Source of the DNA: Paenibacillus sp. MMS20-IR301
Lineage (GTDB): Bacteria > Bacillota > Bacilli > Paenibacillales > Paenibacillaceae
Assembly: GCF_032302195.1 (NCBI RefSeq)
Contig: NZ_CP135275.1
Location: forward strand, 6,647,001 to 6,711,000
Length of the DNA stretch: 64,000 bases
Direction of reading: 5' to 3'
The notes under the pieces are model-generated. The model did no database searches. It had not been told where the DNA came from and saw nothing but the letters and a program-made list of their open reading frames with translations. Below are positions 28,560 through 59,114 of this stretch, piece by piece. The position numbers were made by a program, and so were the translations under genes. Numbering within the stretch: position 1 is the stretch's first letter; the number at the start of each line of letters is the position of its first letter.

Positions 28560-28579
28560 GTATCAAAGTAATCAAACGC

Positions 28580-28866
28580 GATGACGAGAAGAGTAAGTCC
28601 ATTTCTTCCCTCACAGAGAGCTCCGGCTGGTGTGAAGGAGCAGGGAAGGCTGGACCGAAACAAGCCTCTGAGCGGTATTCCGGAACCGGCCTGAGCCGGG
28701 GATGGGATGACAGGAGCTCCTGTTACAGAGCTAGAGTATAAGCCCTGCCCTCCGGCAGCGCCGTACTTGATGAGATTAATATGGCGACATATTAATGAAC
28801 CTGGGGTGGTACCGCGAGAATCTCGTCCCCAAGACTACAGTCTTGGAGGTGAGGTTCTTTTTTGTT
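28580..28866 (+). ncRNA. T-box leader, Gln (CAA) specifier
   Basis: The 5' part has the GACGAGAAGAGTAAG and AGAGAG elements of stem I. The specifier loop reads CCGAA-A-CAA-GCC before TCTGAG, giving codon CAA (28661-28663) for glutamine. The T-box sequence GGGGTGGTACCGCG lies at 28803-28816 and overlaps a terminator. Uncharged tRNA-Gln would stabilise the antiterminator and switch on the GlnRS gene. Confidence 0.9.
28818..28863 (+). terminator. T-box terminator before glnS
   Basis: GAATCTCGTCCCCAAGACT pairs with AGTCTTGGAGGTGAGGTTC (28839-28857), followed by six T. The left arm shares bases with the antiterminator. Confidence 0.9.
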
Positions 28867-28906
28867 GCTCCGTAAAGGGCAGGTATCACCAATACAGGAG
28901 GGGATT

Positions 28907-30619
28907 ATGATGACTGATCTTAATGCTAAACTTGATGAGAGCGGTCCGGCTGTGCCGGAGAATTATATGGATAAGCTGATCAGAGAGGATGCGGAGAGCG
29001 GTGCCTACAGCAGGGACATCTGCACGAGGTTCCCGCCGGAGCCGAACGGCTATCTGCATATCGGCAGTGCTTTTGCCATCCACACGAATTATGAGCTTGC
29101 CCGCCGGAACGGCGGCAGATTCCATCTGCGCTTCGATGACACCAATCCGCTGAAGGAGGATGTGGAATATGTGCAGGCGATCATCCGGGATATCGGTTGG
29201 CTGGGCTGCAGCCCGGGAGAGCATATCTACTACGGCTCCGACTATTCGGAGGAAATCTGCCGCAGTGCCGAGAGACTGATCCTGAAGGGCAAAGCTTATG
29301 TCTGTGACCTGACCCCGGAGGAAGTGACGGCCTACCGCGGGACATTAACGGAGTCCGGCACAAACAGCCCTTACCGCGACCGGACACCGGAAGAGAATCT
29401 GAGGCTGTTCCGGGAGATGCGCGAAGGGAAATATCCGAATGGTGCAAAGGTGCTGCGGGCCAAAATCGACATGGGCTCGCCGAACATCAATCTGCGGGAC
29501 CCGATATTATACCGGATTATTCATGCGGAGCATTACCGCACGGGGGATGCCTGGTGCATCTATCCGATGTATGATTTTGCCCATCCAATTCAGGATGCCA
29601 TTGAAGGGGTGACACATTCGCTCTGCTCGATTGAATTCAAGGATCACCGTCCGCTGTATGAGTGGGTACTGAGTGAGCTGGATACCCCGGAGCCGCCGAG
29701 GCAGAGGGAATTCGGCCGGGTTAATCTGACGGGAGTGGTCACGAGCAAACGCCATCTCCGGGCGCTGGTTGCCGGGGGATACGTCGACGGCTGGGATGAT
29801 CCGCGCCTGCCGACACTCGCCGGACTGCGCAGACGCGGATTTACACCGGAGAGCATCAAGGACTTTGTCAGGGAGATCGGAATGGTCCGCAATACGGCAA
29901 TGGTCGACTTCTCGCTGCTGGAGCACTGTGTCAGACAGGATCTGAAGGCGAAGGTGCCGGCAGTCATGGGTGTGCTGAACCCGCTGAAGGTCGTGCTTAC
30001 AAACTATAAGTCGGGAATTTCCGAGCTAATGGTCATAGATAACAACAGTGAGAACCCTGAGCTGGGAGCAAGGGAGGTTCCGTTCTCCGGAATACTCTAC
30101 ATTGAGCGGGAGGACTTCATGGAAGAGCCTGTGAAAGGCTTCCGCAGACTGGTTCCGGGCGGTGAGGTACGGCTGAAGGGCGGATATATTATCCGCTGCG
30201 ATGATGTGCTCAAGGATGCTGTAACGGGAGAGATCAGCGAGCTCCGCTGCAGCTATGATCCCTTGACCCGAAGCGGCGGTCCGCTGAGCGGGCGTAAGGT
30301 CAAAGGAACCATTCACTGGGTGTCGGCTGCCCATGCGGTCAAGAGTGAGGTCCGCCTGTACGGGCGGCTGCTCAAAGACAATGACGGCCCGAAGGCAGAG
30401 GGGGAGGGCTGGGAGAGCTATATCAATCCGGATTCTGTTACTGTGCTGAAGAATTGTCTGCTTGAGCCTTATGCGGCTGATGCCAATCCGGAGGATAAAT
30501 TTCAGTTCATGCGCCACGGTTATTTCTGCGTAGACAGCAAGTGCAGCAGGGAGGGGAGGCTGGTGTTCAACCGGATCGTTCCGCTCAAAGATACCTGGAA
30601 AGCCGGGGGAGGGAAATAG
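28907..30619 (+). CDS. glnS: Glutaminyl-tRNA synthetase
   Basis: A 570-residue class I synthetase that charges tRNA-Gln directly. The N-terminal catalytic part has FPPEPNGYLHIGS (residues 42-54) and NLTGVVTSKRHLRALV in place of KMSKS. The C-terminal anticodon-binding barrels contain REDFMEEPVKGFRRLVPGGE and GRKVKGTIHWVSAAHA, diagnostic for GlnRS over GluRS. The HIGH box ends in Ser and the MSKR box begins with Thr, both divergent. Start ATG 28907 (or 28910) follows AGGAGGGG; the open frame extends back to 28862 within the T-box terminator. Most Firmicutes make Gln-tRNA by GatCAB, so this enzyme may have been acquired. Confidence 0.92.
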   Translation: MMTDLNAKLDESGPAVPENYMDKLIREDAESGAYSRDICTRFPPEPNGYLHIGSAFAIHTNYELARRNGGRFHLRFDDTNPLKEDVEYVQAIIRDIGWLGCSPGEHIYYGSDYSEEICRSAERLILKGKAYVCDLTPEEVTAYRGTLTESGTNSPYRDRTPEENLRLFREMREGKYPNGAKVLRAKIDMGSPNINLRDPILYRIIHAEHYRTGDAWCIYPMYDFAHPIQDAIEGVTHSLCSIEFKDHRPLYEWVLSELDTPEPPRQREFGRVNLTGVVTSKRHLRALVAGGYVDGWDDPRLPTLAGLRRRGFTPESIKDFVREIGMVRNTAMVDFSLLEHCVRQDLKAKVPAVMGVLNPLKVVLTNYKSGISELMVIDNNSENPELGAREVPFSGILYIEREDFMEEPVKGFRRLVPGGEVRLKGGYIIRCDDVLKDAVTGEISELRCSYDPLTRSGGPLSGRKVKGTIHWVSAAHAVKSEVRLYGRLLKDNDGPKAEGEGWESYINPDSVTVLKNCLLEPYAADANPEDKFQFMRHGYFCVDSKCSREGRLVFNRIVPLKDTWKAGGGK

Positions 30620-48960: not shown

Positions 48961-50097
48961 TTACTGCTTCGCGAGGCTTCCGCTCCGCTTCTTCGCGAGT
49001 TCACGCCGGACTACAGGGGCTACCTCCGTAGCCAGCAGTTCGATGGCTTCCGCAACCTTGGCATACGGCAGGCCGCCTATATCCAGCTGGGTCATGAAGC
49101 GGTTATGGCCGAACAGCTCATGCTGATAGAGAATCTTCTCAATAATCTGCTGCGGACTGCCCACAGCCAGTGTGTCATCAGGAGAGGTGAACCGGCCGAA
49201 TTCGCTGCGTGATACGCGGTATTCCTGTCCGGGCTTCGGGCTGATTGCGTTACGGTAGCTGTAGTAATAAGGATAATACTCATCCAGTGCCTGCTGCGAG
49301 GTCTTGGCAATATAACCGTGACTTGTAATGGCGATCTTAAGGTCCTCCGGCCGGTGCCCGGCTGCAGCACCCGCCCGGCGGTAGGTGTCGGCCAGATTCT
49401 GGAACGGCTCCGGACTGCCGCTAAGAATAGCGATCGCCATACCGATGCCAAGCGTACCGGCCCGTTCGGCGCTTTCCGCGGAGCCGCCGATGCCGATCCA
49501 GAGCGGAAGCTTCTGCTGCAGCGGACGCGGGGCGATCTCGGCGTTATGCAGCGGAGAGCGGAATTTGCCTTCCCAGTTCATTACTTCATGCTGATTCAGA
49601 GTAAGCAGCAGGTCGAGATTCTCACTGAACAGCAGCTTGTAATCCTCCAGCTCATAGCCGAACAGCGGGAAGGACTCGAGGAAGGCGCCGCGCCCGGCAA
49701 TAATCTCCGCCCGGCCGGCTGAGAGCAGATCCAGCGTGGCGAAATCCTCGAAGACCCGGACCGGATCAATGGTGCTCAGCACCGTAGTTGCGCTGGTCAG
49801 CTTAATCCGCTGCGTAATCTGGGCAATGGCGGCCAGCACGACCGGCACCGAAGAAATGACGAAATCCAGCCGGTGATGCTCACCTACGCCGAATACATCC
49901 AGCCCCGCTTCATCGGCCAGCCTGGCAGCGGCAATGACTTCATCCAGCCGCTGGCGGGGGCTGATCCGCTGTCCGGTATGACAATCGGTTACTATATCCC
50001 CGAGTGTATAAATGCCGAACTCGAACTCCGGTTCAGCAGCTTGCTGCGCTTGATTATTCTTTTGAGTATCCCCTTGAATGTTCCCTTCGTTGTTCAT
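48961..50097 (-). CDS. LLM-class flavin-dependent oxidoreductase, second copy
   Basis: A 378-residue luciferase-like monooxygenase. It shares VFGVGEHHRLDFV, TSATTVLSTIDPVRVFEDFA and GRAEIIAGRGAFLESFPLFG with the enzyme at 20864, showing common descent. An N-terminal Gln/Asn-rich tail (~25 residues) and a basic C-terminal tail frame the barrel. Substrate unknown. It is divergent from the ABC/AprAB-like operon, and a perfect palindrome overlaps its promoter. A role in sulfur-compound oxidation (as for SsuD) is possible but not shown. Confidence 0.87.
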   Translation of the reverse strand: MNNEGNIQGDTQKNNQAQQAAEPEFEFGIYTLGDIVTDCHTGQRISPRQRLDEVIAAARLADEAGLDVFGVGEHHRLDFVISSVPVVLAAIAQITQRIKLTSATTVLSTIDPVRVFEDFATLDLLSAGRAEIIAGRGAFLESFPLFGYELEDYKLLFSENLDLLLTLNQHEVMNWEGKFRSPLHNAEIAPRPLQQKLPLWIGIGGSAESAERAGTLGIGMAIAILSGSPEPFQNLADTYRRAGAAAGHRPEDLKIAITSHGYIAKTSQQALDEYYPYYYSYRNAISPKPGQEYRVSRSEFGRFTSPDDTLAVGSPQQIIEKILYQHELFGHNRFMTQLDIGGLPYAKVAEAIELLATEVAPVVRRELAKKRSGSLAKQ

Positions 50098-50311: not shown

Positions 50312-50340
50312 TTGACAGGTTTATAGAATGATGATATTTT
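50312..50340 (+). promoter_or_regulatory. Promoter of the ABC/AprAB-like operon
   Basis: A perfect TTGACA (50312-50317), a 17-base spacer and TATTTT (50335-50340). The leader would be about 150 bases and contains a terminator. Confidence 0.6.
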
Positions 50341-50394
50341 AAATTTACAAATTCCAATTGAATTACTTTGAATTAAATTTAGCCGACTGTACAA

Positions 50395-50440
50395 ACAGAG
50401 GTGCCACGCATATGCCAGTGCGGGGTTCCTCTGTTTTTTT
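50395..50440 (+). terminator. Terminator-like hairpin in the operon leader
   Basis: AACAGAGG pairs with CCTCTGTT, closed by GTGCCACGCATATGCCAGTG, and eight T follow. It lies between the promoter and the first gene, so it may be an attenuator, or may end a short separate transcript. Confidence 0.65.
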
Positions 50441-50493
50441 TGTTAATGAAGAATTATCTGCTGTGTATGATAACACCCGAAGGAGGAGCAGAC

Positions 50494-51270
50494 ATGGGAG
50501 AGGCTTTGCTGGACATTGCCGGGCTGAATAAGCGTTTTGATACTGCTGGAGGAGCTGTAATTGCACTGGAGAATGTAGATCTGCAGGTGCAGGAGGGGGA
50601 ATTCATTACGGTGATCGGTCCCAGCGGCTGCGGCAAAAGCACGCTGCTGCGCATCGTCGCCGGCCTCGATACCGGCTATACCGGGAAGGTTACGCTTGAG
50701 GGGGCGGAGATTGGCGGGCCGGGTATCGATAAGGGGTTTATTTTTCAGGAGCACCGCTTGTTCCCCTGGCTGACGGTAGAGAAGAATATCGCCTCCGATC
50801 TGCCGCTTGGCAGGCCGGATATACGCCAGCGGGTAGATGAGCTGATTGAGCTGGTGAAGCTAAGCGGATTTGAGAAATCGTATCCCCGGGAGCTGTCGGG
50901 CGGGATGGCCCAGCGGGTGGCGATTGCCCGGGCGCTGCTGCGGAATCCGAAGATTCTGCTGCTGGATGAACCGTTCGGTGCACTGGACGCCTTCACCCGG
51001 GCGCATATGCAGACGGTGCTGCTCGACATCTGGCGGCGGAACCGGACCACGATGATTTTTGTAACCCATGATATTGATGAAGCTGTATTCCTGGGCAACA
51101 GAGTGGTAATTCTGGAACCCCGTCCGGGCAAAATCCGCAAGATCGTTCCGGTTGATCTGCCGTATCCGCGTAAGAAGACAACCACCTCGTTTCAGGAGCT
51201 GCGCCTGAAGGTGCTGAATTATTTCGAGAAGGTGGATGAACTGGAGCTGAAGGACGGGGCCGGAATATAG
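50494..51270 (+). CDS. ABC transporter ATPase, SsuB/TauB/NrtD type
   Basis: A 258-residue ATPase for uptake of sulfonates, nitrate or related anions. Walker [11 protein letters not shown] loop FQEHRLFPW, signature [16 protein letters not shown], Walker [13 protein letters not shown] and switch His in [10 protein letters not shown] are all intact. The frame opens at 50401 within the leader hairpin; ATG 50494, 6 bases after AGGAGGAG, is the real start. It energises the two permeases that follow. Confidence 0.92.
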
Positions 51271-51310
51271 CATAATTCCTGTGATTTGGAAATGGAAAGG
51301 AGGAACAGCG

Positions 51311-52147
51311 ATGGCTGAGCGGGCTATAGCAGCGAATGCCGGGAATGCCGGGAATGCCGGAAGAACGCGAAGATCCCAAGGGCCGGGAAAAGCGGCAATT
51401 GCCGGACTCGGGCTGCTGCTGCCGGCAGGCGTATTAATCCTGTGGCAGATATTAGGACATTACGGGCTGATCTCGGAGATGCTCTTTCCGGCGCCTTATA
51501 CGATTGCCCTGTCCTTCCTTGCGCTGGCTTCTGCCGGAGACTTATGGAATAACTTCAGCATCAGTGCGGTACGGGCACTTTCAGGGTTCCTGCTGGGCAG
51601 CGGGCTTGGACTGCTGTTCGGGATTCTGGTCGGATTGTTCCGCAGATCGGAGAAGCTGCTTGATCCTTCGCTGCAGATGATCCGGATGATCCCCAGCCTG
51701 GCAGTCGTGCCGCTGTTCATTCTCTGGTTCGGCATCGGCGAAGAATCCAAGGTGCTGCTGATCGCCAAGGGCGCGTTTTTCCCCTTGTATATTAATACCT
51801 TCATGGGAATACGGGGGACCGATAATAAGCTTTTCGAGGTAGCCCGGGTGCTGGGCTTCAGCAGAGGGAAGCAGATTTTGCGGCTGGTGCTGCCGGCGGC
51901 AGTGCCGAATATCATGCTCGGTGTACGGCTGTCGCTGGGCCTCTCATGGCTGGGTCTGGTGGTGGCGGAGCTGATTGCTTCCACCTCGGGAATCGGCTAC
52001 ATGATGTCGGATGCCCGGCAGTTTGCCGATACGCCTGTCGTATTTGTCGGAATTATTGTTTTTGCTGCTGCAGGCCTGATCAGCGATACGATGGTCCGTC
52101 TGATTGAACGGCGGCTGCTGCGGTGGCGGGACAGCTATCAAGGATAG
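51311..52147 (+). CDS. ABC permease, SsuC type (first copy)
   Basis: A 278-residue permease with about six spans and EAA loop FEVARVLGFSRGKQILRLVLP. The N-terminus carries a NAGNAGNAG run coded by three exact copies of a 9-base unit. ATG 51311 after AAAGGAGGAAC. Paired with the next permease, suggesting a heterodimeric channel rather than the usual SsuC homodimer. Confidence 0.9.
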   Translation: MAERAIAANAGNAGNAGRTRRSQGPGKAAIAGLGLLLPAGVLILWQILGHYGLISEMLFPAPYTIALSFLALASAGDLWNNFSISAVRALSGFLLGSGLGLLFGILVGLFRRSEKLLDPSLQMIRMIPSLAVVPLFILWFGIGEESKVLLIAKGAFFPLYINTFMGIRGTDNKLFEVARVLGFSRGKQILRLVLPAAVPNIMLGVRLSLGLSWLGLVVAELIASTSGIGYMMSDARQFADTPVVFVGIIVFAAAGLISDTMVRLIERRLLRWRDSYQG

Positions 52148-52162
52148 GAGGGAAAGAACCGC

Positions 52163-53050
52163 ATGAGTGAAGGGATAGAAGCAATAATCAAGACCGCCAA
52201 GGGGGTAAGGGAAGCCCGTGATTATAGCGGAACAGCTTCAATTACTACGCATAACAACAAGAGAAGATTAACTGTTGCTTCCTGGAAATCTCTTTTGTCC
52301 GACTGGGGCACCGGGGCGCTAATTCCCGTAGCAGTAATCGCCGTATGGCAGCTTGCCGGGAGTGCCGGATGGATCTCGCCGGAATTTCTTCCGGCACCGC
52401 TGACGATTCTCTCCGCATTTGCCGAGTTGGCCGTAAGCGGGGAGCTTACTCATCATCTGGGCGTCAGTATCGGAAGGGCAGGCATCGGATTCCTGATTGG
52501 AGGAATTCTCGGCCTCCTGCTGGGGACGCTGACCGGCCTGTTCCGGACAGCAGCTTATCTGCTGGACCCGAGTGTGCAGATTCTGCGGCTGGTTCCCCAT
52601 CTGGCCATAGCACCGCTGATTATTCTGTGGTTCGGCTTCGGGGAAATTTCGAAGGTGGTTATTATTATGAGCGGCGCTTTCTTTCCGCTCTATATTAATA
52701 CATTTATGGGCATCCGGGGAGTGGACAACAAACTGTTTGAAGTGTCCCGGGTGCTCGGGTTCAGCCCGCTGCAGAAGCTGAGGCGGCTGATCCTGCCGGC
52801 AGCGCTGCCCGGTATTCTGCTGGGCCTGCGCCTGTCGATGGCTGTAGCCTGGATTGGCCTGGTTGTTGCTGAGCTGATCGGCTCACAGTCAGGGGTCGGG
52901 TTTCTGATTAATGAAGCGAAGCAGAACTCCAATACGGCGGTGATTTTTGTCGGAATTATTATTTTCGCAGTGGTAGGCAAGCTGATCGATTCTCTGTTCC
53001 GCGTGATCGAACGCAAATTCCTGTACTGGCGTGACAGCTATCAAGGCTGA
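52163..53050 (+). CDS. ABC permease, SsuC type (second copy)
   Basis: A 295-residue permease clearly homologous to the preceding one: EVSRVLGFSPLQKLRRLILP matches its EAA loop, and both end in DSYQG. A polar ~50-residue N-terminal tail precedes span 1. It starts 15 bases after the first copy, with AGGAGGGAAAG. Confidence 0.9.
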   Translation: MSEGIEAIIKTAKGVREARDYSGTASITTHNNKRRLTVASWKSLLSDWGTGALIPVAVIAVWQLAGSAGWISPEFLPAPLTILSAFAELAVSGELTHHLGVSIGRAGIGFLIGGILGLLLGTLTGLFRTAAYLLDPSVQILRLVPHLAIAPLIILWFGFGEISKVVIIMSGAFFPLYINTFMGIRGVDNKLFEVSRVLGFSPLQKLRRLILPAALPGILLGLRLSMAVAWIGLVVAELIGSQSGVGFLINEAKQNSNTAVIFVGIIIFAVVGKLIDSLFRVIERKFLYWRDSYQG

Positions 53051-53084
53051 AGGCTAAGGCTAATGAAACCAAGGGGGCAAGAAC

Positions 53085-54692
53085 ATGAACCAACCGGCAC
53101 TAAAGGAAACATTGACACTGACAGCGGATGTACTGGTAATCGGCGGAGGTCCGGCAGGAACATGGGCGGCACTTACAGCTGCAGCCAAGGGGGCCAAGGT
53201 GATCCTGGCTGATAAGGGGTACTGCGGCTCCAGCGGCGCGACGGCCCCGTCAGGCACCGGAGTCTGGTATGTGAAGCCGGAGGCGGAGCTGCGCGAGGCA
53301 GCCAAGGCCAGCCGCTATGCGATGGGCGGCAAGCTGGCCGAGCACCGCTGGATGGACCGGGTGCTGGACCGTACCTACGAGAATATGAACAGGCTTGGGG
53401 TTGCCGGCTATCCGTTCCCGGTGGATGAGGAAGGGAATCAATACCGCCGCAGCCTGCAGGGACCTGAATATATGCGCCTTATGCGCAAGCTGGTGAAGAA
53501 GGCGGGAGTGAAGATTCTGGACCACAGCCCGGTGCTGGAGCTGCTTGCTGATGAGCACGGTGTAGCCGGAGCCGCCGGGATACAGACGCAAGGCGGAGCA
53601 GCCTGGAGCGTGCATGCCGGGGCGGTAGTGATTGCTACCGGAGGCTGTGCATTCCTCAGCAGGGCGCTGGGCTGCAATGTTCTGACGGGTGACGGCTACT
53701 TATTCGCGGCTGAAGCAGGGGCGAGCCTGTCGGGCATGGAGTTCTCGAATGCCTATGCGATCTGCCCGACCTTCTCCTCTGTAACGAAGACCGCATATTA
53801 CAGCTACGCCAGCTTCTATTATGAGGACGGCAGTGTAGTGGAAGGAGCAGGCTCCAAGAAGGGCCGTTCCGTAATTGCCAGGAATCTGCTGGCGGGCCGC
53901 CAGGTATTCGCTAAGCTGGACGGGGCTGATGAAGCACTGCAGCCGCTGCTGCGGGTGGCCCAGACGAATTTCTTCCTGCCGTTTGACCGGCGGGAGATCA
54001 ATCCCTTCAAGGATGCATTCCCGGTAACGCTGCGGCTGGAAGGGACTGTCCGCGGAACAGGCGGCATCCGGATTACAGATGAGAGCTGCGGCACAGGCGT
54101 ACCAGGGCTATATGCTGCAGGCGATGCGGCTACCCGTGAGCTGATCTGCGGCGGGTTCACCGGAGGGGGAAGCCATAATGCCGCCTGGGCGATGTCTTCC
54201 GGCTCCTTCGCCGGAGAAGGCGCGGCAGCCTATGCAGCCGGGCTCGGCCGGCACTCGGATCACCGTGCCCCATCCGGACTGTCCTCTTCACCGCTGGTTC
54301 ACCAGGAAGTGAGAGCGGGAGCGGCAGCCAGAACTGCGGAATATGTAGAGGCAGTGCAGGCGGAGGTCAAACCGTACGACATCAATCTGTTCCGCACAGA
54401 GCAGGGGCTGGCCGCCTCGCTGGAACGTCTGGATGGACTGTGGAAAGAGCAGCGCAGCCGGGAGATCCAGCGCACGCCGGAGGGCGTGAAGGCGCGGGAA
54501 GCAGAGGCGATGACGGCAACGGCCCGCTGGATGTACAGCTCCGCACTGGCCCGCACTGAAACCCGGGGAATGCATAAACGCGAGGACTTCAAGGGAAGCG
54601 ACGACAGCCAGCATCACCGGCTGATCAGCGGCGGGCTGGACCAGATCTGGGTTAAGGCAGAAGAGGTAGCGAAGGAGAGTGTACTGCTGTGA
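53085..54692 (+). CDS. AprA-like FAD-dependent oxidoreductase (first copy)
   Basis: A 535-residue flavoprotein of the fumarate reductase/adenylylsulfate reductase alpha family. FAD site: VLVIGGGPAGTWAALTAAAK at the N-terminus and a second glycine-rich region (GVPGLYAAGDAATRELICGG) near 340. Also ATAPSGTG and ALGCNVLTGDGYLFAAEAGA. Its stop overlaps the ferredoxin start (GTGA), giving an AprA/AprB-like pair. No signal peptide, so it is cytoplasmic. The substrate is unknown; context in a sulfonate-type importer operon suggests reduction of a sulfur or related compound. Confidence 0.85.
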   Translation: MNQPALKETLTLTADVLVIGGGPAGTWAALTAAAKGAKVILADKGYCGSSGATAPSGTGVWYVKPEAELREAAKASRYAMGGKLAEHRWMDRVLDRTYENMNRLGVAGYPFPVDEEGNQYRRSLQGPEYMRLMRKLVKKAGVKILDHSPVLELLADEHGVAGAAGIQTQGGAAWSVHAGAVVIATGGCAFLSRALGCNVLTGDGYLFAAEAGASLSGMEFSNAYAICPTFSSVTKTAYYSYASFYYEDGSVVEGAGSKKGRSVIARNLLAGRQVFAKLDGADEALQPLLRVAQTNFFLPFDRREINPFKDAFPVTLRLEGTVRGTGGIRITDESCGTGVPGLYAAGDAATRELICGGFTGGGSHNAAWAMSSGSFAGEGAAAYAAGLGRHSDHRAPSGLSSSPLVHQEVRAGAAARTAEYVEAVQAEVKPYDINLFRTEQGLAASLERLDGLWKEQRSREIQRTPEGVKAREAEAMTATARWMYSSALARTETRGMHKREDFKGSDDSQHHRLISGGLDQIWVKAEEVAKESVLL

Positions 54693-55021
54693 TTGAAGTA
54701 ATCAGCGCGGACAGATGTATAGAATGCAATCAGTGTGTATCCGTCTGCCCGACCAATGTATTCGACCGGGTGGAGGACGGAATACCCGTCATCGCCCGGC
54801 AGAGCGACTGCCAGACCTGCTTCATGTGCGAGCTGTACTGTCCGGTAGACGCTCTGTATGTGGCTCCCGATTCCGAGGAGATTACCGGAATTACTGAAGC
54901 GGAGCTGGAGCAGCAGGGACTGCTCGGCGGGTACCGCGAGAAGGTGGGCTGGGGCAGGGGGAGACAGCCGGTGGCCGCTCATGAATTCATGTATCAGCTG
55001 GCGGCCAGGGCAGGGTTCTGA
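54689..55021 (+). CDS. 2x[4Fe-4S] ferredoxin (first copy)
   Basis: A 110-residue ferredoxin. Two clusters are bound by CIECNQCVSVCP and CQTCFMCELYCP, each CxxCxxCxxxCP. About 45 extra residues follow, somewhat like the tail of AprB. GTG 54689 overlaps the flavoprotein stop. It would pass electrons to the preceding flavoprotein. Confidence 0.9.
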   Translation: MIEVISADRCIECNQCVSVCPTNVFDRVEDGIPVIARQSDCQTCFMCELYCPVDALYVAPDSEEITGITEAELEQQGLLGGYREKVGWGRGRQPVAAHEFMYQLAARAGF

Positions 55022-55083
55022 AGCAGGCAGTAACCAATAACAATATCAAACATCCGGCAGATGACTGAGGGGAGAACAGGGCA

Positions 55084-56154
55084 ATGAATAAATTGTACAG
55101 AGAGATTACTGGTGTATGGAGTACAAGGGGGCGCCTCACGCTGATCGCAGGTGTGGTGATGATTATGCTGGTGCTGCAGGCCTGCGCCAATAATGCCGGC
55201 TCCGGGAACAGCGGCAGTGCAGCAAACGGCGGCGGAACGGATACAGCCGAGGCGGCAGGCAGTGGAGAGGCCGGCAATGCTCCGGCGGTACTGAATTTCG
55301 GGTTCATCGGCTCGAACAAGCTGAATCTGCCCGGCGGTGCAGAGGGCTGGGGCTTATACAAAGGAATTATTCAGGAAGAGCTGAAGCAATACGGGATTAC
55401 GGAAGTGAAGCTGACCGGCTTCCCGAACGGCCCGGACCAGACAGAATCACTGATTAGCGGACGGCTGGATTTCGGCAGTCTGGGGGACACCCCGGCCATT
55501 ATTGCCTATGCTTCGGGAGCCAAGACCCGGCTGATCGGCCAAAGCTCGGCCCATACGGTCGGTTATCTGATCGGGAAGAAGGATGGACCGAAGACTGTAC
55601 AGGATCTGAAGGGCAAGACGATTGCGATTCAAAAAGGCTCGTTCATGCACCGTTATGTTGTCGGCCTGCTGCAGCAGGAGGGGATTACGGACTATAAGCT
55701 GGTTCATATGCTGATTCCGGATGCGACTGCAGCGCTTGCCCGCGGAGATGTGGATGCGACCACGAATCTCGGTGTGCCTGCGCTGAAGCTGATTGAGCAG
55801 GGCTATACCCACCTGGATGATGCGTCGAGTCATCCGGATCTGCTCGGAAGCAGTGCGACGGTTGTATCGGAGGAATATCTTAAGAAGTTCCCTGATTTCC
55901 CTAAAGCGTGGAATGCAGCGCGGGAGAAGGCGCTGGCTGACCTGAAGCAGCATGAAGATGAGTATTATGCATTCCTGGCCGAGATCGGGGATACCACCCC
56001 GGAGCTTGCGAAGCAGGTGAATCCGATCAGTGATATCAAGGATACAGCGTTCACGGACGAAGGCACGAAGCTGCTGGAGGGAACCAAGAATTTCCTGGTT
56101 GATGAGAAGCTGGCCAAGAAGGATTTCAATATCAGCGACTGGCAGCTTAAGTAA
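55084..56154 (+). CDS. ABC transporter substrate-binding lipoprotein, SsuA/NrtA type
   Basis: A 356-residue lipoprotein. After a basic start the signal (LIAGVVMIMLVLQAC) ends in lipobox LQAC, then a Gly/Ser/Asn linker, then the NMT1/SsuA-like fold with GFPNGPDQTESLISGRLDFG, DLKGKTIAIQKGSFMHRY and DATAALARGDVDATTNLG. It captures the anion outside the cell and delivers it to the permeases at 51311 and 52163. It lies between the two flavoprotein-ferredoxin pairs. Confidence 0.9.
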   Translation: MNKLYREITGVWSTRGRLTLIAGVVMIMLVLQACANNAGSGNSGSAANGGGTDTAEAAGSGEAGNAPAVLNFGFIGSNKLNLPGGAEGWGLYKGIIQEELKQYGITEVKLTGFPNGPDQTESLISGRLDFGSLGDTPAIIAYASGAKTRLIGQSSAHTVGYLIGKKDGPKTVQDLKGKTIAIQKGSFMHRYVVGLLQQEGITDYKLVHMLIPDATAALARGDVDATTNLGVPALKLIEQGYTHLDDASSHPDLLGSSATVVSEEYLKKFPDFPKAWNAAREKALADLKQHEDEYYAFLAEIGDTTPELAKQVNPISDIKDTAFTDEGTKLLEGTKNFLVDEKLAKKDFNISDWQLK

Positions 56155-56188
56155 GATTAAGAACGGTGAACCGAAGGGAGGCAGCAGA

Positions 56189-57805
56189 ATGCCGCAGCAG
56201 CATCAGCAGGTAACGACAGATGTACTAGTGCTGGGCGGAGGGCCAGCCGGAGCATGGGCGGCATGGAGTGCAGCCTCGCAGGGTGCAAAGGTCATTCTGG
56301 CTGACAAAGGATATCTTGGAACAAGCGGGGCCACTGCGCCGGGCGGAACAACGCTCCTGGTCATTCCCCCGGTGGCAGAGCTGCGGGAGCAGGCCGTGCA
56401 GGCCAGGCTGAAGGCAGGCGGTTATCTCTCGGAGAATGCCTGGATTCACCGTGTGCTGGATCAGGTGGAGCAGAATCTGACACTGGTCGGGGAATGGGGA
56501 TATCCCTTCCCGAAGGATGAAGACGGCAGGCCGCTGCGGACGCATCTGCACGGGCCTGAGTATATGAAAATTATGCGCAGGGCAGTCCGCAAGGCGGGCG
56601 TGCGCATATGGGATCAGTCTCCGGCGCTTGAGCTGCTGCATGATCAGCACGGGGCAGGCGGTGCACGCGGTATCAACCGCCTGACCGGAGAGCGCTGGGA
56701 GGTGAAGGCGAATGCGGTGGTTATGGCGACAGGCGGCTGCACCTTCCTCAGCAAGGGACTGGGCTGCAATGTGCTGACCGGGGAGGGGCTGCTGATGTCA
56801 GCCGAAGCCGGGGCCGAATTGTCCGGCATGGAATTCAGCCGCCAGTATGCCCCGAGCTTCGCGGATGGAACAGTGACACGCGGGCGCATGCTGGCCTGGG
56901 CCACGCTGTATGACGCTGCGGGGAAGCCGCTGCACCGCGGCGACCGCACCTTCGGCAGCATCCCCGAGCTGATGCTGAAGGGGCCGGTCTATGCTTCGCT
57001 GGATCTGGCGGATACGGCGGAGAAGCAGGCATTCCTGCGGAAAGCCCACCCGATCTTCTTCATGCCGCTGGAGCGGGCGGGAATTAATCCGTTCAAGGAT
57101 AAATTCCCGCTCACGCTCCGCTATGAAGGCACGATGCGCGGCACGGGCGGCCTGCGCCTGGCGGGCACCGATTGTGGCACATCGGTGCCCGGCCTGTACG
57201 CCGCGGGAGATGCCGCCTCCCGCGAGAAAGTGACCGGCGCCATCTCCGGCGGCGGCGCCTACAATGCATCCTGGGCCATCTGCAGCGGCAGCTGGGCAGG
57301 AGCAGGCGCAGCGCGGCACGCTTTGCGCGGGCCGCGCCCGGCGGACAGCCGGCTGCTCCGCGCGGCAGGCCGCTACGGGTTGCCGGCTGGCGCCGGCTCC
57401 GCAAGGGCGCTGGACGCGAAGCCGCTGATTGCGGCCGTCCAGCGGGAGATCCTGCCGCTGCAGATCAATTACTTCCGCAGCGAGCCCGTGGTCGCTGCAA
57501 GCCTGCAGCGGCTGAACAGCTTGATGCCCGGACTGGGCGGGCAGGTGCCCGCGACGGTTCAGGGCATCGTGCAGAGCCGTGAAGCGGCCGCCATGCTGAC
57601 TGTCGGCCGCTGGATATACACCGCTGCGCTGGCCCGCAAGGAGAGCCGCGGGCTGCAGCACCTGGCCGAGTACCCGGTGCTGGACCCGCGCCAGACCCAC
57701 CGCCTGATTCTCTCCGGCATTGAGCGGATCAGCATACGGACCGAAAGCGTGCCGCATGCCCATGAACTGCATGCCCGCACGCCGGGAGAGGAGCGGGCGA
57801 TATGA
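56189..57805 (+). CDS. AprA-like FAD-dependent oxidoreductase (second copy)
   Basis: A 538-residue paralogue of the enzyme at 53085. FAD motif VLVLGGGPAGAWAAWSAASQ, then GATAPGGTTLL, GLGCNVLTGEGLLMSAEAGA and GLYAAGDAASREKVTGAISGG. The frame extends back to 56030 inside the previous gene; ATG 56189 after AAGGGAGG is chosen. The C-terminal third is more GC-rich than the first copy. The stop overlaps the next ferredoxin start (ATGA). Divergence from copy one in the active-site region suggests a different substrate or step. Confidence 0.85.
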   Translation: MPQQHQQVTTDVLVLGGGPAGAWAAWSAASQGAKVILADKGYLGTSGATAPGGTTLLVIPPVAELREQAVQARLKAGGYLSENAWIHRVLDQVEQNLTLVGEWGYPFPKDEDGRPLRTHLHGPEYMKIMRRAVRKAGVRIWDQSPALELLHDQHGAGGARGINRLTGERWEVKANAVVMATGGCTFLSKGLGCNVLTGEGLLMSAEAGAELSGMEFSRQYAPSFADGTVTRGRMLAWATLYDAAGKPLHRGDRTFGSIPELMLKGPVYASLDLADTAEKQAFLRKAHPIFFMPLERAGINPFKDKFPLTLRYEGTMRGTGGLRLAGTDCGTSVPGLYAAGDAASREKVTGAISGGGAYNASWAICSGSWAGAGAARHALRGPRPADSRLLRAAGRYGLPAGAGSARALDAKPLIAAVQREILPLQINYFRSEPVVAASLQRLNSLMPGLGGQVPATVQGIVQSREAAAMLTVGRWIYTAALARKESRGLQHLAEYPVLDPRQTHRLILSGIERISIRTESVPHAHELHARTPGEERAI

Positions 57806-58158
57806 TTGAGCTGGTGAGCCAGGACCGCTGCATCGGCTGCAGTCTGTGTGTGAAGGTGTGTCCGACCCATGTGTTCGAGCTGCAAGGCAAGCTTGCTGTA
57901 ATTGCCCGCCAGGAGGATTGCCAGACCTGCTTCATGTGTGAGGCTTATTGTCCGGTGGACGCGCTGTATGTAGCGCCGCAAGCAGAGATATTGGCTCATC
58001 CTGAGGAGCAGGAGCTTATAGCCTCAGGCCTGCTCGGCAGCTGGCGGGCAGAGATCGGCTGGAATCCCGGTGCGGAGGAGACGATGGCCGGGCGGGATAC
58101 GACGCCATTTTTTGAGGTTTTTACCGAGGCGAACCGGAACCCGGGAGGAAGCGAATAA
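57802..58158 (+). CDS. 2x[4Fe-4S] ferredoxin (second copy)
   Basis: A 118-residue ferredoxin homologous to that at 54689: CIGCSLCVKVCP and CQTCFMCEAYCP, followed by the same style of tail (SGLLGSWRAEIGW). Last gene of the eight-gene operon. It should serve the second flavoprotein. Confidence 0.9.
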   Translation: MIELVSQDRCIGCSLCVKVCPTHVFELQGKLAVIARQEDCQTCFMCEAYCPVDALYVAPQAEILAHPEEQELIASGLLGSWRAEIGWNPGAEETMAGRDTTPFFEVFTEANRNPGGSE

Positions 58159-58439: not shown

Positions 58440-59114
58440 ATGAGCAATACAGAACTTGCTAGCCAGCTTTCCAGTTTTACGGGAAGACTACTGCGGGAAC
58501 GCTTCGGGAAGGGACCTGAGTCGATACATGCTTCTATCGGAGAGCAATGTATCGCACTGCATATCCGCAACTTTATCGGGCCTGTGGAGAGATTTTTGTT
58601 AAGTAAGGAAGAAGAACAGGCATTTCGCTACACCCGTGAGCTGCTGATGAAGTCCCTGCTCCCTGAATTGTCGGCGTACCTGAAGGATAATATGGCTATT
58701 GAGGTCGGCGAGCTTTTCTATGATTGGGGCATACATAACGCGTCGGGGATGATCGTTGCACTTATCAAGAATGACAGTGTGGTTACCGACAATTATGCAG
58801 GGCGTGAAGAGGTTCATTCCCAGATTAACGAAGTGAGCAGCAAGGTGCAGAAGGAACCGGTCTTTACCGACTCCTGGTGGCTTGGTCCGCGTATTCTGAT
58901 TATCAAGCGTGAAGGTATTCTTATTCCGCTGGAGAAGGAACTGATCGGGCTCGGCTATGAGAATACACTGAAGACGACCAAACGCAAGATGGAGAAGCGA
59001 TATTTGGAAGATACCACCACAATTGCCCCGATGCTCGGCAAGGAGCTGTCGGATATTTATGTGGACTGGGATTTCGACAAAGATACCAGTGTGATAGCGT
59101 ACACTTTTCAATAA
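58440..59114 (+). CDS. MpsC-family (DUF2294) protein
   Basis: A 224-residue soluble protein with two related halves: FTGRLLRERFGKGPESIHAS in the first and KRKMEKRYLEDTTTIAPMLG in the second, as in the DUF2294/MpsC family. MpsC belongs to a sodium-linked membrane-potential/CO2 system in staphylococci; in bacilli the domain occurs alone. No mpsAB genes are adjacent, so the role is unclear. ATG 58440 after GGAGG. Confidence 0.75.
   Translation: MSNTELASQLSSFTGRLLRERFGKGPESIHASIGEQCIALHIRNFIGPVERFLLSKEEEQAFRYTRELLMKSLLPELSAYLKDNMAIEVGELFYDWGIHNASGMIVALIKNDSVVTDNYAGREEVHSQINEVSSKVQKEPVFTDSWWLGPRILIIKREGILIPLEKELIGLGYENTLKTTKRKMEKRYLEDTTTIAPMLGKELSDIYVDWDFDKDTSVIAYTFQ

Follow-up and report, generated by a model that had tools for sequence, protein, structure and literature searches.

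The assimilatory sulfonate routes known use flavin mononucleotide (FMN) monooxygenases or 2-oxoglutarate oxygenases, together with one anaerobic, nitrogenase-like case. The subject of this study is an operon in which a sulfonate-type importer is encoded together with two flavoprotein-ferredoxin pairs, located within a 64,000-nucleotide stretch (the window) of the 7.69 Mb genome of Paenibacillus sp. MMS20-IR301 (contig NZ_CP135275.1; G000:C1:6647001-6711000). The closest published system found is that of Rhodobacter capsulatus, in which IsrBHDK provides an anaerobic route for isethionate together with an SsuCAB importer (PMC11423573). A 26-kb R. capsulatus locus includes genes for an FAD-dependent oxidoreductase of unknown function (rcc02232; FAD, flavin adenine dinucleotide) and an NtaA-annotated protein (rcc02222), with transcript ratios for isethionate versus sulfate of about 4000 and about 5000, respectively; single mutants of either gene still grew on isethionate without oxygen, and an aerobic isethionate route, independent of Xsc and Isr, is unexplained in this organism, whose genome has no ssuED (PMC11423573). 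Searches of open-licence PubMed Central papers listed no title or abstract opening that names the enzyme family of the Paenibacillus operon, and one for AprAB-like enzymes together with sulfonate found no paper.

The window operon was found where the original prediction had placed it, at 50494-58158, and consists of eight genes of five kinds, all on the plus strand and separated by short gaps or overlapping. The gene order is an SsuB-type ATPase, two SsuC-type permeases, a flavoprotein (A1), a ferredoxin (B1), an SsuA-type lipoprotein, and a second flavoprotein and ferredoxin (A2 and B2); the A-B pairs are referred to as AB (Table 1). The domains found were ABC_tran, BPD_transp_1 (twice), FAD_binding_2/Succ_DH_flav_C, Fer4, and NMT1. 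Matches of the importer parts to SsuA, SsuB, and SsuC types were the best or near the best, yet all fell below the curated cut-offs; SaoA/SaoP was rejected as the importer identity for the same reason. The two permeases share 57% identity across 247 residues, and among solved proteins the lipoprotein is nearest to SsuA (2x26, E 1.2e-17; 3uif), 3e4r, and TauA. Readings of open reading frames, profiles, and domains revealed neither SsuD nor TauD among the eight genes. The original prediction had noted this absence, which is true of the operon; the same genome, however, encodes an SsuD above the family cut-off elsewhere (G000:334232-335269).

The pairing of importer and redox genes extends well beyond the window. 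Loci encoding an A1 relative were surveyed as the best 80 of 533 in named genomes, sorted by their titles into 46 from Bacillales and 34 from other groups. An importer part lay within 4 kb of the A gene at all 46 Bacillales loci and at 21 of the 34 others, and anywhere in the locus at 46/46 and 26/34, respectively. A binding protein of the window type directly adjoined the A gene at 41 Bacillales loci and 19 of the remainder. The association of importer and A gene exceeds chance. Window-type importer genes also stood alongside A-B at seven of ten annotated plasmid loci, which were read out of 59 records; the plasmid loci of Sinorhizobium meliloti Ak57 and P. cellulositrophicus contain importer genes and no sulfur oxygenase. 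A conserved unit of importer and AB, tied to organosulfur uptake, is therefore well supported, and the combination to which the original prediction drew attention is borne out. Named hosts among the best 80 loci and the plasmids include Paenibacillus, Cohnella, Bacillaceae, Nostocales, rhizobia, Azospirillum, Cupriavidus, Paracoccus, Nocardia, and others. A large redox family accompanies sulfonate-type importers across several phyla, and at most Bacillales loci it is the sole enzyme seen with the importer. As a separate observation, genes resembling YcnI and CopD were present beside AB in a Paenibacillaceae locus (L152 3119-5453, by reading) and in Paracoccus methylovorus (L123 2957-4932, by annotation).

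Whether the operon is a sulfur-scavenging module, in which AB acts on an imported organosulfur compound, is in our estimate an even call, and this is the explanation that we favour. The substrate of the SsuABC-type importer would be an organosulfur anion and, to judge from the binding protein and the neighbouring genes of relatives, most likely a sulfonate. A1B1 and A2B2 would be paralogous versions of one enzyme type, each composed of an FAD subunit and a ferredoxin subunit with two [4Fe-4S] clusters, the fold and cofactor motifs being shown by the sequence and a model. Because the starts of B1 and B2 overlap the stops of A1 and A2, A and B were taken to be coupled subunits that probably bind each other. 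The two clusters would relay electrons between the FAD and a donor or acceptor in the cell, and the FAD would transform the imported compound, or what is first made from it, in a two-electron step; sulfite or sulfide would presumably result and feed the synthesis of cysteine. The step might be reductive, or might be a dehydrogenation that prepares C-S cleavage, with a slight lean to the former. The AB enzyme is the sole catalytic part of the minimal operon, and the two pairs would be alternatives, perhaps with differing substrate ranges, rather than consecutive steps. Transcription would probably answer sulfur supply through a conserved leader. Once the substrate of AB is found, either a new kind of chemistry at the C-S bond or a new helper of the known oxygenases would come to light.

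Several observations weigh against the scavenging explanation. A search within 4 kb of the A gene turned up no importer part at 13 of the 34 non-Bacillales loci, and three of the ten plasmid loci were without a window-type importer: in those of Agrobacterium and Rhizobium etli, dipeptide-type transporters and a PhnD/SsuA-family binding protein adjoin A-B, and in that of Sphingobium neither is present. Flavin monooxygenases adjoin AB in Nostocales, Proteobacteria, and a few Paenibacillaceae, and AB could serve them. Another enzyme encoded elsewhere may complete the path, since TauD and DszC-like proteins were searched for at the loci only. Finally, the leader model R1 (see below) revealed no other sulfur operon with the leader in 21 genomes, which leaves sulfur control a prediction. 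The bolder proposal is that AB represents a new stand-alone desulfurising class, built on FAD and two [4Fe-4S] clusters, that removes sulfur from imported sulfonates or related compounds without O2 and offers a further route to soil bacteria that live aerobically, to rhizobia, and to cyanobacteria, SsuD being present in some of these hosts; we regard this as unlikely.

The A proteins have the FrdA/SdhA/NadB fold and a conserved GGG-x-x-N stretch, and the closest named relatives of A1 are from Paenibacillus phytohabitans (97% identity) and P. silagei (96%). Among the matches listed, no NCBIfam model exceeded its cut-off for the A family. The AprA model, TIGR02061, with a cut-off of 641.75, scored 40.6 bits against the A2 protein and 42 in a genome search; for A1 it was outside the 25 best families listed and scored 27.8 bits in the genome search. 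In a comparison by sequence alignment, the AprA residues N74, W234, F261, R265, and H398, which we take to be those of the adenylylsulfate (APS) site (the letters of N74, W234, R265, and H398 were confirmed in 1jnr), were gapped or changed in 33 of 33 A-family rows, although some of the gaps may be artefacts of the alignment. Apart from A. fulgidus, five AprA rows were usable and one more was left out; all five keep these residues, as do all three rows resembling 3'-phosphoadenylylsulfate (PAPS) reductase. The fumarate-site His and Arg positions of FrdA, presumably H232, H355, and R390 of the E. coli protein, hold other residues in A, according to a profile alignment to FrdA. The B subunits tell a similar story: all 102 B proteins contain CQ[TS]C, with Gln at the AprB Trp position and ordinary ferredoxin spacing, and all ten AprB or PAPS reductase-like beta proteins, found in 12 loci, contain CW[ED]C. 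The Trp that lies next to the second cluster in these beta proteins, and that AprB uses for electron transfer, is thus not present in the B family. The original prediction had called the pairs AprAB-like, and this holds for the fold; the TIGR02061 scores lie far below the cut-off and the substrate residues are absent, so that AprA-type chemistry is not supported. Its wish to distinguish the flavoproteins from ordinary APS reductases was justified by the active-site alignment and by the presence of CysH (see below).

A1 and A2 share 48-51% identity, and B1 and B2 share 57%. A rapidly built maximum-likelihood tree of 125 proteins placed the A2-like rows (clade II) on one side of a branch with a Shimodaira-Hasegawa-like approximate likelihood-ratio (SH-aLRT) value of 93. 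The other large group contained A1-type proteins from Bacillota, Cyanobacteria, a Capsulimonas and a Polyangiaceae metagenome-assembled genome, and six plasmid rows; three plasmid rows lay outside both groups on long branches, and their placement is unsure. Given this split, the two flavoproteins are, as judged from their sequences, most likely old paralogues rather than products of a recent tandem duplication. It was also observed that at four Nostocales loci (L085, L093, L098, L106) the A gene has no B gene directly after it, and that an MFS-like (major facilitator superfamily) transporter gene follows in L085, L098, and L106.

The alternative that survives best, which we judge unlikely but still to be taken seriously, is that AB supplies electrons or reduced flavin to two-component flavin monooxygenases (SsuD, NtaA/DmoA, DszC/SfnB, HpaB) in place of a flavin reductase, and that the oxygenase opens the sulfur compound. 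An SsuD, TauD-like, DszC/SfnB-like, NtaA-type, or HpaB-like oxygenase was detected by single-query BLAST in 17 of the 34 non-Bacillales loci, eight of them with DszC/SfnB-like neighbours; at 43 of the 46 Bacillales loci no such neighbour was detected, and the use of single queries makes undercounting likely. In one Paenibacillaceae genome (G078), a lipoprotein-SsuD-permease-ATPase series immediately precedes A1, and in another (G092), HpaB-like genes adjoin B1 and A1. Further HpaB-like genes were found at L072, L078, and L083, and G133 and G082 each carry an NtaA-family gene no more than 2 kb from an A gene. In Nostocales loci, SsuD, DszC/SfnB-like, and TauD-like proteins are encoded near A, and in the Nostoc locus the SsuD exceeds its NCBIfam cut-off and the other two fall below theirs. 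The plasmid loci offer a comparable range. Luciferase-like monooxygenase (LLM) oxidoreductases occur in Shinella, Pseudonocardia, R. etli, and Paracoccus methylovorus, and Pseudonocardia also has a TauD/TfdA dioxygenase. Agrobacterium and R. etli share an annotated SfnB, the Azospirillum locus encodes an amidohydrolase besides a 2-oxoglutarate oxygenase, and that of Sphingobium encodes an annotated arylsulfatase (atsA) with two monooxygenases. Four monooxygenases tested from the Shinella, Pseudonocardia, and Sphingobium loci belong to the NtaA/DmoA family, above its cut-off.

The gene content of whole genomes bears on the flavin-supply proposal from both sides. Among 148 genomes drawn from the window's family, of which 38 are AB genomes, an SsuD above the cut-off was commoner where AB is encoded (20/38 versus 30/110; Fisher p 0.0056, uncorrected for kinship). 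This counts in favour of the proposal and indicates that AB does not simply replace SsuD. NtaA-family proteins exceeded the cut-off in 109 of the 148 genomes. However, G102, G118, and G028 encode A genes and neither SsuD nor the NtaA family at E 1e-60, and the TauD-like proteins also found as neighbours need no flavin. Two copies and the pairing with an importer would likewise be odd for a general reductase.

The original prediction had proposed an oxygen-independent reductive route in which both pairs act in succession on the imported compound, and we consider this improbable. The FAD and two [4Fe-4S] clusters do resemble the parts of the reductases MtPAPSR, AprAB, and FrdAB, the operon has no oxygenase, and an anaerobic assimilatory sulfonate route with SsuCAB is real elsewhere (PMC11423573). 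The main evidence that makes consecutive steps unlikely is the existence of single-pair genomes of either kind. A single A gene was found in 15 of the 38 AB genomes, many of which are drafts, although the assemblies of G028, G078, G084, and G115 comprise one or two contigs each. The operon of G448 reads ATPase-permease-permease-lipoprotein-A2-B2, and A1 is absent. Either pair can therefore serve the importer alone. The idea of a speciality of anaerobes also did not hold. Of 299 drawn Bacillota genomes, three encode A1 relatives at E 1e-60: that of the window and two others from its genus. The named hosts are mostly aerobic lineages. This distribution argues against a system of anaerobes, yet not against an oxygen-independent enzyme inside aerobes, as it does not bear on the oxygen need of the AB enzyme itself. 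The step that AB carries out may or may not be reductive.

Equally improbable, in our view, is an operon unrelated to sulfur, in which the importer takes another NMT1-type ligand (nitrate, a pyrimidine, or other) and AB works on it. The Pfam NMT1 match, the nearness of the ATPase to nitrate NtrCD, and the place of 3e4r, deposited as a nitrate transport protein, among the nearest solved binders are consistent with this proposal, but the SsuA family is the best match of the binding protein and sulfur genes recur near AB in several phyla. In G448, for instance, a sulfatase-like gene, an SsuA-family binding protein, and importer parts lie a few kb from the A2B2-only operon (L154 12242-16448). Least probable of all is an AprAB-kind APS/PAPS reductase or sulfite oxidase acting on inorganic sulfur freed by other enzymes: the fold common to MtPAPSR and AprA, the ferredoxin subunit, and the cysD and cysN genes near A-B on a Paracoccus aminophilus plasmid are outweighed by the altered AprA and AprB positions and by CysH, which is encoded in 147 of the 148 genomes (the exception, G096, is a non-AB genome) and makes AB unneeded for APS reduction. 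AprA itself exceeded its cut-off in nine of 249 genomes, and 47 of the 249 encode AprA-like proteins at E 1e-60, with no member of the window's family among them.

The region 5' of the operon carries a conserved leader with an AATTC...GAATT imperfect palindrome (50350-50374), a small CTGT-ACAG hairpin, and an intrinsic terminator (ACAGAGG...CCTCTGT and a T run, about 50395-50441) before the ATPase gene; the small hairpin overlaps an arm of the terminator. Applied to 23 upstream stretches, a simple rule yielded 18 leaders, and nine of these, aligned at 73% mean identity, formed the basis of model R1. In 21 genomes, R1 gave seven matches: the window's own, G448, G449, G457, G447, G013, and G029. 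The surroundings of five matches were read, those of the window, G448, G449, G457, and G447. The match in G448 precedes the same operon type, and G013 and G029 are both AB genomes. In G449 (95% complete) the leader persists, the operon is missing between its LLM and MpsC neighbours, and no A gene was found at E 1e-40. In G457, about 400 bases separate the leader from a C-terminal fragment of A1 (residues 354-535) that follows it. The match in G447 (E 0.003) looks like chance. The cases of G448, G449, and G457 indicate that the leader travels with the operon, which behaves as a losable unit. On the evidence of sequence, the leader is a probable attenuator, possibly specific to this operon, and is conserved in Paenibacillus. 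The decaying copy in G457 (G457:C1:1118074-1119126) and the lost copy in G449 (L155), both retaining the leader, constitute a natural deletion series. Riboswitch or T-box control of the operon was rejected, as no Rfam family reached its gathering score upstream and the 14 matches of a permissive scan were all far below theirs. Elsewhere in the window, a T-box leader (28572-28833; 110 bits, above the gathering score) lies directly 5' of a gene (28862-30619) named glutaminyl-tRNA synthetase-like from reading its sequence.

Two genes flank the operon. An MpsC-domain gene (58440-59114) is located directly 3' of it and occupies the same place in several relatives. On the other side, a luciferase-like monooxygenase gene (48961-50097, minus strand) adjoins it, with Atu2307/SP_0267 as the nearest family, below the cut-off; it was rejected as a part of the system because it is kept in G449 without the operon and its best family match is below the cut-off.

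Table 1. Features of the operon and its leader in the window. The starts at 50494, 51311, and 56189 are chosen in-frame ATG codons; the mechanical open reading frames are longer.
Feature	Position	Strand	Basis
Putative promoter (TTGACA, 17 bases, TATTTT)	50312..50340	+	Read from sequence; similar sequence 5' of the operon in relatives
Conserved leader, probable attenuator	50344..50440	+	Alignment of relatives; model R1 matches the window here
ATP-binding cassette (ABC) importer ATPase, SsuB/TauB/NrtD type	50494..51270	+	Best NCBIfam matches SaoA, NtrCD, TauB; SsuB also listed; all below cut-off
ABC permease 1, SsuC type	51311..52147	+	PRK11365 SsuC 243 bits, cut-off 347
ABC permease 2, SsuC type, paralogue of permease 1	52163..53050	+	Profile matches, pairwise identity
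A1, FAD flavoprotein, FrdA/NadB/AprA fold, uncharacterised family, clade I	53085..54692	+	Profiles, domains, alignments, tree
B1, small ferredoxin subunit, two [4Fe-4S]	54689..55021	+	Fer4 domain; start overlaps A1 stop
Substrate-binding lipoprotein, SsuA type	55084..56154	+	TIGR01728 140.9 bits, cut-off 163.5
A2, second FAD flavoprotein, clade II of the A1 family	56189..57805	+	Profiles, domains, alignment, tree
B2, second ferredoxin subunit, two [4Fe-4S]	57802..58158	+	Fer4 domain; start overlaps A2 stop

Compared with the known systems, the operon combines familiar parts in a different way. SsuABC, which works with SsuD/SsuE, has the same types of ATPase, permease, and lipoprotein, and the window binder is nearest to solved SsuA; the window operon differs in its two permeases, its AB redox pairs, the lack of SsuD/SsuE, and profile scores that are all below the curated cut-offs. 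AprAB is alike in the fold of A, the FAD, and the partner with two [4Fe-4S] clusters, whereas the window A proteins are shorter and appear to lack the residues at the five substrate positions, and the B proteins have ordinary ferredoxin spacing and Gln for the electron-transfer Trp. MtPAPSR, the assimilatory PAPS reductase of Methanothermococcus (8a8o), keeps all five of these residues; the A family keeps none. FrdA/SdhA and the L-aspartate oxidase NadB share the fold of A, but the presumed fumarate-site His and Arg differ, and the partner of A is a small ferredoxin. In two protein searches, R. capsulatus was not named among the 120 best matches listed, and rcc02232 stands as a possible member of the A family; if the desulfurising proposal is true and rcc02232 is a member, the aerobic isethionate route that is still unexplained might be the work of an AB-type enzyme. 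The IsrBHDK system of the same organism resembles the window operon in joining an assimilatory sulfonate route to an SsuCAB importer, but its catalysis is attributed to nitrogenase-like and radical SAM (S-adenosylmethionine) proteins, unlike AB (PMC11423573).

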